From Verrucomicrobiota bacterium (GTDB lineage Bacteria > Verrucomicrobiota > Verrucomicrobiia > Chthoniobacterales > UBA10450): a DNA stretch of 39,060 nucleotides. The notes under the pieces are model-generated. The model did not search any database, had not been told where the DNA came from, and saw only the letters and a list, made by a program, of their open reading frames with translations. The DNA lies in the NCBI GenBank assembly GCA_003219415.1, contig QHOS01000053.1, forward strand, positions 1 through 39,060, in the 5' to 3' direction. Both the position numbers and the translations under genes were made by a program. Shown in pieces: positions 35,916 through 39,060 of the stretch (position 1 is the first letter of the stretch; each line of letters opens with the position of its first letter).

Positions 35916-35953
35916 TTAATTCGGAAAAATCCCATCGGGATTGAATCGTCCAG

Positions 35954-35987
35954 CCCAGCGTGGCCCCGCTTTCGGGGCTACGCTGGG
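35954..35987. repeat. Long REP-like hairpin, left copy
   Basis: The 14-bp stem CCCAGCGTGGCCCC / GGGGCTACGCTGGG with a GCTTTC loop has one G-T pair. Its inverted partner at 36551-36581 keeps the outer 8 bp, while the inner part has diverged. Confidence 0.75.
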
Positions 35988-36056
35988 TAATCGGTTATCC
36001 ATTCATCAACTCTGAAAGAGTTGAATCAACGGGAGGATTGCAGTCAGGATGGCATC

Positions 36057-36511
36057 ATGCCTCAATCGCTCGCTAAAATTCTGGTTCATACCGTCTTTTC
36101 AACCAAAGATCGGCACCAGTTTCTCCGCGATGAAGCGTTGCGCGCCGAATTGCATCGTTATCTCGGCGGCATTCTGCAAATCACGATTGCCAACCATTCA
36201 TCATCGGCGGTGTGGAAGACCATGTTCATCTTCTTTCGACACTCTCGCGCACCTGCGGGGTGGCGGAAATGGTTAAGGAAGTCAAACGCGGGTCGTCCCT
36301 ATGGCTGAAAACGCAAGGCCCGGGTCTGCGCGACTTCGCATGGCAAAATGGCAATGGGATTTTTTCCATCGGATTTTCACAGATCGAGGGAGTGAGAAAC
36401 TATGTCGCTGGGCAACAGGAACATCATCGAAAAGTTTCATTTCAAGACGAATTCCGGCAGTTTCTCCGAAGATATCAAATTGAATTCGATGAACGGTATG
36501 TTTGGGATTGA
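36057..36511 (+). pseudogene. REP-associated tyrosine transposase (Y1_Tnp/IS200-like), frameshifted
   Basis: The N-terminal part (MPQSLAKILVHTVFSTKDRH, RAELHRYLGGIL) is read from the ATG at 36057. After ILQ (36177-36179) the frame must move by -1 to continue as NHDCQPFIIGGVEDHVHLLS, which holds the HUH metal motif HVH. The rest reads VAEMVKEVKRGSSLWLKTQG, WQNGNGIFSIGFSQIEGVRN, YVAGQQEHHRKVSFQ with the catalytic Tyr, and FDERYVWD before the stop. A single lost A in the CAAAT run explains the break. An intact protein would be about 151 residues, normal for RAYT. It may now depend on another copy for activity. Confidence 0.82.
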
Positions 36512-36550
36512 TGCAACTCCGTCAGAGTTGCTAATACATCTAACCGACTA

Positions 36551-36581
36551 CCCAGCGTAGCCGCTTCGCGTCAACGCTGGG
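36551..36581. repeat. REP-like hairpin, right copy (inverted)
   Basis: CCCAGCGT / ACGCTGGG with a GC-rich inner part, the inverted partner of 35954-35987. The flanks GGCTGGATGATTGAATC match the left flank in reverse complement with few changes. Confidence 0.75.
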
Positions 36582-36684
36582 CTGGATGATTGAATCCCGT
36601 TGGGATTAGCAAATCGGAACACGCGCACTCCGAGGGGTGACCTGTCGCCGTTGCGAGGCATTCAGTCGGAAAATTTTGCCGGAA

Positions 36685-36711
36685 TGTCGAAATGCGTCGC
36701 TGCCGGGCGTC
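36685..36711 (+). promoter_or_regulatory. Candidate ECF42 promoter of the DoxX-like gene
   Basis: TGTCGA (36685-36690), 17 nt, then CGTC (36708-36711), in a wider context AATGTCGAAATGCG that recurs at 37194. TGTCGA is, as I recall, the reported -35 motif of ECF42 sigma factors, and an ECF42 gene lies 1.5 kb downstream. The DoxX-like start is 27 bp beyond the -10 element. Confidence 0.7.
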
Positions 36712-36737
36712 ATCATAGTGAGGCAAAAGGCATTTCT

Positions 36738-37085
36738 ATGTTTATCATTTATATCATTGTCACGATCGTGACGGTTGCCGCTAACGTCTTTGCGGCTGTC
36801 GTCGACTTCCGCCATCCCCAATGGGTGGTCGACAACATCACGAGGTGGGGAGGGTCCCAGTCCTGGCTGTTCACGCTTGGCGCCCTCAAGGCCGCGGGCG
36901 CGCCTGGACTCATGATAGGCATCGGCGTTCCTCTAGTCGGCGTTGCAGCTGCGACTGGCCTGGTTCTGTTTTTTCTTGGAGCTATCGTTGTTGTGACACG
37001 TGCTCGCTGGTACTCACACCTTCCATGGCCTGCGACGTATCTCTTCCTTGCTGTGGCTTCGCTGGTATTACGGCTCGCCGTGTGA
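36738..37085 (+). CDS. DoxX-like membrane protein
   Basis: A 115-residue protein with four membrane helices: MFIIYIIVTIVTVAANVFAA, LKAAGAPGLMIGIGVPLVGV, AATGLVLFFLGAIVVVTRAR and ATYLFLAVASLVLRLAV. The GxxKAAG..GL and RWYSHLPWPA arrangement fits DoxX_2-type proteins, whose role is unclear though some are tied to redox stress. The start ATG at 36738 follows AAAAGG; sequence further upstream in frame belongs to the promoter region. It lies behind a candidate ECF42 promoter and in front of the AhpD-like gene. Confidence 0.8.
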   Translation: MFIIYIIVTIVTVAANVFAAVVDFRHPQWVVDNITRWGGSQSWLFTLGALKAAGAPGLMIGIGVPLVGVAAATGLVLFFLGAIVVVTRARWYSHLPWPATYLFLAVASLVLRLAV

Positions 37086-37094
37086 TTCAAGGAG

Positions 37095-37144
37095 TGACGG
37101 CTTCCCAGCCGTCATAATTGGTTCGGCGGCTGCCCAAGCCGCCG
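37095..37144. repeat. Pair of GC-rich hairpins after the DoxX-like gene
   Basis: TGACGGCT-TCCC-AGCCGTCA (37095-37114) and CGGCGGCT-GCCCA-AGCCGCCG (37124-37144) both have perfect 8-bp arms ending in AGCCG. AAGGA and TCCTT bracket the pair. They probably terminate the DoxX transcript or are REP-like; no T-run follows. Confidence 0.6.
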
Positions 37145-37195
37145 TTCCTTGTAAGAGGCGGCGCTCGTAGACTGCCGCGAAAAATTTTCGGAAAA

Positions 37196-37222
37196 TGTCG
37201 AAATGCGCAGTCACCAAACGTC
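37196..37222 (+). promoter_or_regulatory. Candidate ECF42 promoter of the AhpD-DGPF-sigma operon
   Basis: TGTCGA (37196-37201), 17 nt, CGTC (37219-37222), the same spacing as the site at 36685. The surrounding block (AAAATTTT, AATGTCGAAATGCG, ATGAGG) is also shared. It is placed about 68 bp before the AhpD-like start. Confidence 0.72.
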
Positions 37223-37290
37223 AGCATTATGAGGCCGCGAAGTATTCCGGCCCGATAACAAAAACGAAATAAGAGGAGAGAAAGCAAAAA

Positions 37291-37767
37291 ATGAAAACCA
37301 TACAAGCACGAATGAAAAACCCGGCGATGCTGATTCCTGAGGCGATGCAGCCTCTGATGTCTGTCGTGGCGGCGGTGAGAAAGAGTGGTGTGCCCCAGCG
37401 CACGCTCGATCTCGTTCACTTGCGCGCCAGCCAAATCAATGGCTGTAGCCTCTGTGTGGATATGGGCTCCCGAGAGCTTAAGAAGGCCGGCGAGACAGAC
37501 GACCGTCTCTTCGCTGTAGCTGCCTGGCGGGAAGCGCCTTATTTTACCGAGGCCGAGCGCGCCGCGCTGGCGCTTGCCGAAGCGGTCACGCGGCTTAGCG
37601 ATCGATCCGATCCGGTACCGGAGGAAATATGGAAAGAAGCCATTCTGTATTATGACGAGAAGGCGCTCGCAGCCCTAATCCTCTGTATCGCCACGACCAA
37701 CTTCTTCAACCGTCTCAACGCCACGACCAAACAGATGGCTGGCGAGCAGTCGTGGAGCGACCGCTAA
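37291..37767 (+). CDS. AhpD-like carboxymuconolactone decarboxylase family protein
   Basis: A 158-residue protein of the CMD/AhpD fold. The redox motif is in ASQINGCSLCVDMGSRELKK (CxxC: C53 and C56 region) followed by a relay His-type position replaced by Asp. Other family features are MQPLMSVVAAVRKSGVPQRT, FTEAERAALALAEAVTRLSD and LILCIATTNFFNRLNATTKQ. Family members act as alkylhydroperoxidase-type thiol reductases. The RBS AAGAGGAGAG precedes the start. CMD proteins are frequent targets of ECF41/ECF42 sigma factors, and the gene sits just behind a matching promoter, upstream of the DGPF and sigma genes. Confidence 0.9.
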   Translation: MKTIQARMKNPAMLIPEAMQPLMSVVAAVRKSGVPQRTLDLVHLRASQINGCSLCVDMGSRELKKAGETDDRLFAVAAWREAPYFTEAERAALALAEAVTRLSDRSDPVPEEIWKEAILYYDEKALAALILCIATTNFFNRLNATTKQMAGEQSWSDR

Positions 37768-37804
37768 GGAACAACGAATAAAAACAATAACTGAAACTAA
37801 CATT

Positions 37805-38173
37805 ATGAAATACGCATTACTCGTTCATCAATCACTGGAACACTTCGATCGCCGCAATGACAAGGCCGCCGTGGCCGCTGGCAGAGCGTACGGTGAGGCG
37901 CTGCAGGCAGCGGGCATTTTTATTGGCGGCGCCGGATTAGATTCGCCTAAAAACGCGACCACTGTTTCGATTCGCGACGGAAAACGCCAAGTCCATGACG
38001 GTCCTTATGCTGAGACGAAAGAGTTTCTTGCCGGCTTCGGAATCATTGACGTGCCGGATCTGGATGCGGCGTTGGAATGGGCTGCGCGTCATCCTGCTGC
38101 CGGTTTCGCCTCGATTGAGGTGCGTCCATTGTTAGGCGATCGGTTCATGGTTGCGCCTGCGAAGGGAGCATGA
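37805..38173 (+). CDS. YCII-related DGPF-domain protein
   Basis: A 122-residue protein with the DGPF signature expressed as VHDGPYAETKEFLAGFGIID. It starts MKYALLVHQSLEHFDRRNDK and ends VRPLLGDRFMVAPAKGA. The fold is a YCII-like ferredoxin fold. DGPF genes are the hallmark partners of ECF42 sigma factors; the protein probably takes part in the signal or response, but its exact role is unknown. The stop overlaps the sigma-factor start as ATGA, so translation is coupled. Confidence 0.9.
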   Translation: MKYALLVHQSLEHFDRRNDKAAVAAGRAYGEALQAAGIFIGGAGLDSPKNATTVSIRDGKRQVHDGPYAETKEFLAGFGIIDVPDLDAALEWAARHPAAGFASIEVRPLLGDRFMVAPAKGA

Positions 38174-39060
38174 GCGAATCAGCGACCCATGCAGCAATTG
38201 AAACCGTTGCGCGAGATTCATATGGGCGACTTATCGCCTACCTCGCGGCACGATCGGGCGACGTCGCCGGCGCGGAAGACGCGCTCGGCGACGCGTTCAT
38301 CGCGGCATTGAAGCGGTGGCCAGCGGAAGGCGTTCCGGAAAAACCAGAAGCATGGCTGCTACATGTCGCGCGTAATCGAATGATTGACGCGGCTCGCCGA
38401 AAGCAAGTGCGGCAAGAATCTGAGACGTTTCTACAGCAAATCACGGAGGAAGCAGCGAGCGTCGCAGCAACACAAGAATATTTCCCCGACGAACGACTGA
38501 AACTTCTTTTCGTCTGCGCGCACCCGGCGATTGATCCCTCCGCTCAGACACCGTTGATGTTGCAAACAGTTCTTAGGGTTGATGCCGCACGAATTGCATC
38601 GGCGTTTCTCGTTTCGCCTGCAGCTATGAGCCAGCGGCTCGTTCGCGCGAAAAATAAAATTCGTGACGCCGGGATTCCTTTTCGTGTGCCGGAGCCGCCA
38701 GAGCTGGAAGAACGAGTTTCTTTTGTTCTCGATGCCATCTATGCCGCCTACACGACGGGTTGGGAAAGCCTGATGGAAACAGCTTCCACGCATCACGCGC
38801 TCGCGTCAGAGGCCATCGCGTTAGGACGAATGTTAACGCAGCTGATGCCGCGCGAACCCGAAGCTCACGGTTTACTTGCGCTGATGTTACACTGTGAAGC
38901 ACGACGTGAAGCACGTTACGGGAGCGATGGCGATTTTGTGCCGCTAGATCGGCAAGACACTGGTCTTTGGTCGCAATCGATGATTGACGAAGCCGAGACA
39001 CATCTGCACTCGGCTGCCGCCTTCAAGCGCATGGGACGCTATCAATTGGAAGCTGCCATT
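38170..39060 (+). CDS. ECF42-group RNA polymerase sigma factor (3' partial)
   Basis: Open from the ATG at 38170 to the right edge (297 codons; no stop seen). Region 2 includes YGRLIAYLAARSGDVAGAED, DALGDAFIAALKRWP and PEAWLLHVARNRMIDAARRK. The region 4 helix-turn-helix is ARIASAFLVSPAAMSQRLVR. DERLKLLFVCAHPAIDPSAQ and DAIYAAYTTGWES are group-specific. Sequence beyond residue about 190 (AIALGRMLTQLMPREPEAHG) is the TPR-like C-terminal extension typical of ECF42, which controls activity in place of an anti-sigma factor. The RBS GAAGGGAG is just before the start. The full-length protein should be about 400 residues. Confidence 0.93.
   Translation, partial: MSESATHAAIETVARDSYGRLIAYLAARSGDVAGAEDALGDAFIAALKRWPAEGVPEKPEAWLLHVARNRMIDAARRKQVRQESETFLQQITEEAASVAATQEYFPDERLKLLFVCAHPAIDPSAQTPLMLQTVLRVDAARIASAFLVSPAAMSQRLVRAKNKIRDAGIPFRVPEPPELEERVSFVLDAIYAAYTTGWESLMETASTHHALASEAIALGRMLTQLMPREPEAHGLLALMLHCEARREARYGSDGDFVPLDRQDTGLWSQSMIDEAETHLHSAAAFKRMGRYQLEAAI

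Follow-up and report, generated by a model that had tools for sequence, protein, structure and literature searches.

Sequence evidence for a predicted two-promoter regulon of an ECF42-type sigma factor in a soil Verrucomicrobiota genome

The window analyzed here, a stretch of 39,060 nucleotides (contig C246) from a 3.6-Mb Verrucomicrobiota MAG with 96.5% completeness, very probably ends in the locus of an ECF42-type sigma factor that controls its own operon and has a regulon of two promoters, as judged from its sequence. Four genes follow each other on the + strand at its 3' end, and the same promoter-like element precedes both the first of them, which codes for a DoxX_2 family small membrane protein, and the putative operon formed by the other three. 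Autoregulation and the inclusion of DoxX in the regulon had been proposed in a sequence-only reading, and both are well supported as predictions, with paired promoters in two other genomes and a motif that tracks the sigma gene.

The doxX_2 gene, a predicted target (36738 to 37085), codes for 115 amino acids (PF13564, 74 bits). Downstream are a CMD/AhpD-like alkylhydroperoxidase-family gene (37291 to 37767; 158 aa; PF02627 and TIGR00778) with a CxxC motif (CSLC), a YCII-related (DGPF) protein gene (37805 to 38173; 122 aa; PF03795, 71 bits) and, overlapping the latter by 4 nt at its start, the ECF42-group sigma factor gene (38170 to 39060), of which 297 aa are present before the contig ends at 39060. 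By the sigma protein, the closest named relatives of the MAG are AV-series Verrucomicrobia MAGs and Candidatus Udaeobacter. The assignment of the protein to ECF42 holds, given the presence of sigma region 2 (PF04542, 41 bits), the DUF6596 extension (residues 182 to 283, 107 bits) and the YCII neighbor. For sigma region 4, Pfam gave no call in this protein (P0004), and TIGR02937 spans residues 17 to 166 at 40.5 bits, with a cutoff of 42.9. The TPR-like C-terminal extension described in the earlier reading corresponds to DUF6596 in the window, with its end most likely on a different contig (C228), and a full-length orthologue of 411 aa has DUF6596 together with a weak TPR_2 under its cutoff. A SnoaL-like C-terminal domain was sought by Pfam in the sigma factor and none was found, the extension being DUF6596 instead.

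C228 (L016) shares, at 90% identity, its first 272 nt with the last 272 of the window. This contig carries the remainder of the extension, after which come another DoxX_2 gene and one that is PLD-like. Judging from sequence and gene order, C228 is most likely the continuation of C246, split from it by strain variation, because the order at a related locus (L048) is identical and the sigma gene is also followed by the PLD-like gene at two others (L052 and L057); it could instead be a second copy. The neighbors of the sigma gene are AhpD, YCII and DoxX_2 in the window, and DoxX_2 and the PLD-like gene on C228 and L048, so that the earlier statement that no anti-sigma gene is visible stands, a result that depends on C228 being the continuation.

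Both of the near-identical TGTCGA-17-CGTC elements reported for this region are there, on the + strand, starting at 36685 and 37196. The first predicted ECF42 promoter (36670 to 36724) consists of a AAAATTTT block (36670 to 36677), a -35 element TGTCGAAATG from 36685, a -10 element CGTC (36708 to 36711) and TGAGG, and is located 26 nt upstream of the DoxX_2 gene. The second, predicted to be autoregulatory (37181 to 37234), lies upstream of the AhpD–YCII(DGPF)–ECF42 genes and has a AAAATTTT block, TGTCGAAATGCG at 37196, CGTC (37219 to 37222) and ATGAGG. Common to the two are the AAAATTTT block, TGTCGAAATGCG, the spacer of 17 nt between TGTCGA and CGTC and the downstream TGAGG. Over 55 nt the two are identical at 39 positions, and the best of about 199,000 random pairs of windows reached 30. 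In a repeat search the two copies (58 nt, 71% identity) formed the sole family of direct repeats, with a minimum length of 16 nt, between 35900 and 37300. The AhpD leader was also considered as a structured RNA, a candidate that was rejected, with a weak hairpin and no compensatory changes.

The TGTCGA motif attributed to ECF42 factors in the earlier reading is correct. Mapped, RpoE10-responsive promoters of the ECF42 factor of S. meliloti read TGTCGG-N17-CGTC (PMC6180224, Table 1), and the same element is found at ECF42 loci of many phyla. We compared 80 such loci, drawn from Verrucomicrobiota, cyanobacteria, proteobacteria and other groups, in which 35 instances of the spacer of 17 lie on the sigma strand and 3 on the opposite strand, the background being about 3.5 for each spacing (Poisson P of about 5e-23, related loci not being independent). 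The motif precedes the sigma operon, and the distance from it to the first gene is usually 40 to 130 nt. Most of the genes that intervene before sigma are YCII genes; many cyanobacteria have GST there, and CMD was found at two loci, both of close relatives. Many proteobacterial and Paenibacillus loci among the 80 do not have the motif, which is therefore not universal in the ECF42 group. Nor does it always entail autoregulation, since the own operon of S. meliloti RpoE10 was not raised in expression despite having the motif (PMC6180224). DoxX homologues near ECF42 genes were sought in other phyla and found only at L048 and one Paenibacillus locus.

Contig C20 (L015) of this genome codes for another ECF42-like factor, 36% identical to the first. 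The TGTCGA/CGTC motif of the first system was sought there and is absent, and a different candidate, TGTCC-N18-CGTTRTA, is found on C20 at 9117, 9574 and 10957, before glyoxalase, YCII and DUF899 genes, and also at G000:C107:6732, before a decayed reading frame resembling the DUF899 protein. A stricter form of this second motif had 12 matches in 8 genomes of relatives (L228 to L236) and 0 in the reversed control, and these matches precede YCII, glyoxalase, AHSA1, DUF1428 or DUF899 genes where the gene could be called. A bipartite-word search of the C20-type loci, which differ in orientation and are truncated at contig ends, returned nothing clear. These observations suggest two ECF42 factors with separate promoters, each motif being assigned to its sigma factor by location only. 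A broader scheme, in which specificity would be split (TGTCGAAAT/CGTC versus TGTCC/CGTTRTA) to give insulated regulons and, in the TGTCGA system, the DoxX proteins would act as partners or sensors with feedback on the TPR extension, replacing an anti-sigma factor, seems unlikely to us. We find it quite improbable that both promoters are mainly read by another sigma factor, be it the C20 factor or one of the ECF41 type, for which a CMD/AhpD with CxxC is a typical target (PMC3426412): C20-type factors are found in many relatives that do not have the TGTCGA motif and have their own candidate motif, while the ECF41 consensus TGTCACA-n16-CGTC (PMC3426412) does not fit TGTCGAAAT with its N17 spacing.

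Recognition of both promoters by the adjacent sigma factor, which we prefer, is consistent with their distribution in related genomes. The two promoters are retained in two other Udaeobacter-type genomes, G027 (L178) and G016 (L179), with DoxX_2 orthologues that are 72% identical, and the AhpD copy is retained at L188 (G017) and L050. Among the eight sites, the invariant columns are almost only the A/T block, TGTCGAAA, CGTC and a few following bases, with a variable spacer interior and variable flanks. The pattern TGTCGAAAY-N14-CGTCNNC has ten exact matches in 58 genomes, seven of them at DoxX/AhpD promoters and three elsewhere that look like chance (3 versus 4 in the reversed control). The seven belong to G000, G016, G017 and G027, all of which have the sigma orthologue, and the co-occurrence of motif and orthologue gives a Fisher P of about 0.001. 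Among the genomes that have the orthologue and no exact match, the contig of G006 begins within AhpD, G029 has an AhpD gene disrupted at the start together with a sigma gene interrupted by an internal stop, and in G044 a variant, TGTCGAAAC-N14-CGAC, precedes the YCII gene. A longer motif was found among 147 genomes of the order only here (2 matches) and once in G132, where the sequence is the one at the L050 sigma locus, with 0 matches in the control. Nine DoxX paralogue loci elsewhere showed no such promoter element, so the link concerns this DoxX and not DoxX genes generally. A DoxX gene with its own promoter copy is seen in only three genomes, which all belong to a single genus and of which two are 59 to 84% complete, and the phylogenetic depth is therefore shallow.

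This conservation also bears on whether the AhpD operon promoter alone is real and the DoxX copy is the relic of a duplicated promoter segment. The 71% identity of the two copies over 58 nt fits an old duplication, but the DoxX copy has kept its -35, its -10, the upstream A/T block and its position near the start codon in three diverged genomes, with changes in the spacer and flanks, and a relic thus appears very doubtful.

The module itself varies among relatives. L048 (AV125) appears decayed between 1600 and 3600, with an AhpD gene that has neither start nor promoter beside a foreign segment, and its sigma gene has an internal stop despite 95% identity to the protein of the window. L179 (G016:C130, 1449 to 2900) has DoxX-AhpD-YCII with both promoters, followed by an unrelated membrane-protein-like frame in place of sigma, and the sigma gene of this genome is on a separate contig (G016:C245), with an insertion and a TAG; the module may therefore be duplicated or regulated in trans. 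At L049 (AV48), where the sigma orthologue is intact, there is an extra gene between YCII and sigma (1250 to 1819), probably a DUF4256 member. Upstream of the DoxX promoter in the window we found a REP/RAYT-like unit (35925 to 36607), in which a frameshift seems to divide an IS200-like (Y1_Tnp) transposase frame in two (36021 to 36308 and 36212 to 36511), with inverted repeats of 41, 22 and 23 nt on its flanks. A minus-strand version of the unit seems to be present at the same place in L178.

Genome-wide scoring was done by pattern searches. Using the short TGTCGA-N16-18-CGTC as a detector of the regulon, as had been proposed, turned out to be too unspecific: the bare core has 49 matches in the genome versus 17 for the reversed pattern, and 40 of the 44 checked outside the window are inside ORFs, so that it cannot define a regulon and the extended motif is required. 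The latter, TGTCGAAA-N15-CGTC-N6-RTGAGG, is found with 0 mismatches only at these two sites in the 3.6-Mb genome, and the next-best matches have 3 mismatches, which is about the control level. A similarity due to chance or repeats, with no promoter function, can hardly be credited: the bare core is frequent and a REP/RAYT-like element lies directly upstream, but the extended motif is unique, the element is conserved at ECF42 operons across phyla and neither copy belongs to the REP-like repeats.

From the elements, families, conservation and co-occurrence with the sigma gene, we infer promoter activity, autoregulation, signal and biochemical role as follows. RNA polymerase with the sigma factor would recognize TGTCGAAAT as the -35 and CGTC, 17 nt past TGTCGA, as the -10, helped by the AT-rich block immediately upstream. 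One promoter copy would drive ahpD–yciI(DGPF)–sigma, with positive feedback and with the second doxX_2 downstream of sigma probably in the same transcript, and the other copy would drive the first doxX_2 separately. With no adjacent anti-sigma gene, the C-terminal DUF6596/TPR extension would presumably be the site of control. Such a role has been proposed for ECF42 factors, with a protein partner, which might be the YCII protein, acting on the TPR extension to set their activity (PMC8999054). A thiol/peroxide defense module, made of the CxxC AhpD and the DoxX membrane protein, is the likely output, which is plausible by analogy, since DoxX proteins of other ECF regulons are associated with oxidant or metal stress and a CxxC AhpD is a classical target of ECF41.

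The locus is a further example of the known type of ECF42 switch with an unusual gene set, and not a new kind. With the ECF42 factors S. venezuelae Sven_0747, P. putida ECF-10 and S. meliloti RpoE10 it shares region 2 and the DUF6596/TPR extension, the YCII/DGPF neighbor, the absence of an anti-sigma gene and the TGTCG[A/G]-N17-CGTC promoter. Unlike in those systems, the operon includes a CMD/AhpD gene, DoxX_2 has its own promoter copy and a second DoxX_2 follows sigma on the probable continuation; the targets of RpoE10 are glyoxalase-like and other genes, its own operon remaining uninduced. The ECF41 factors with COE genes of B. licheniformis and R. sphaeroides have in common with this locus an AhpD-like CMD target with CxxC, the -10 CGTC, a small autoregulated operon (here predicted) and a regulatory C-terminal extension (here presumed), but they differ in the SnoaL-like extension and the TGTCACA-n16-CGTC promoter, the window having DUF6596 instead, and TGTCGAAAT combined with a spacer of 17 nt. 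A DoxX-family membrane protein is also under ECF control in H. influenzae (RpoE2), N. meningitidis (SigE) and C. crescentus (sigma-F), in these three cases in oxidant or metal stress, with DUF692/DUF2063-type partners and sigma factors of other groups.

We can thus predict that an ECF42 factor of the Udaeobacter-type Verrucomicrobiota, a lineage abundant in soil, has a regulon with two promoters. AhpD and DoxX would thereby join the likely ECF42 outputs; the earlier ECF42 literature may already mention them as neighbors. Two ECF42 factors with differing motifs in one genome would be a natural pair in which to probe promoter selectivity and the ECF42 signal.
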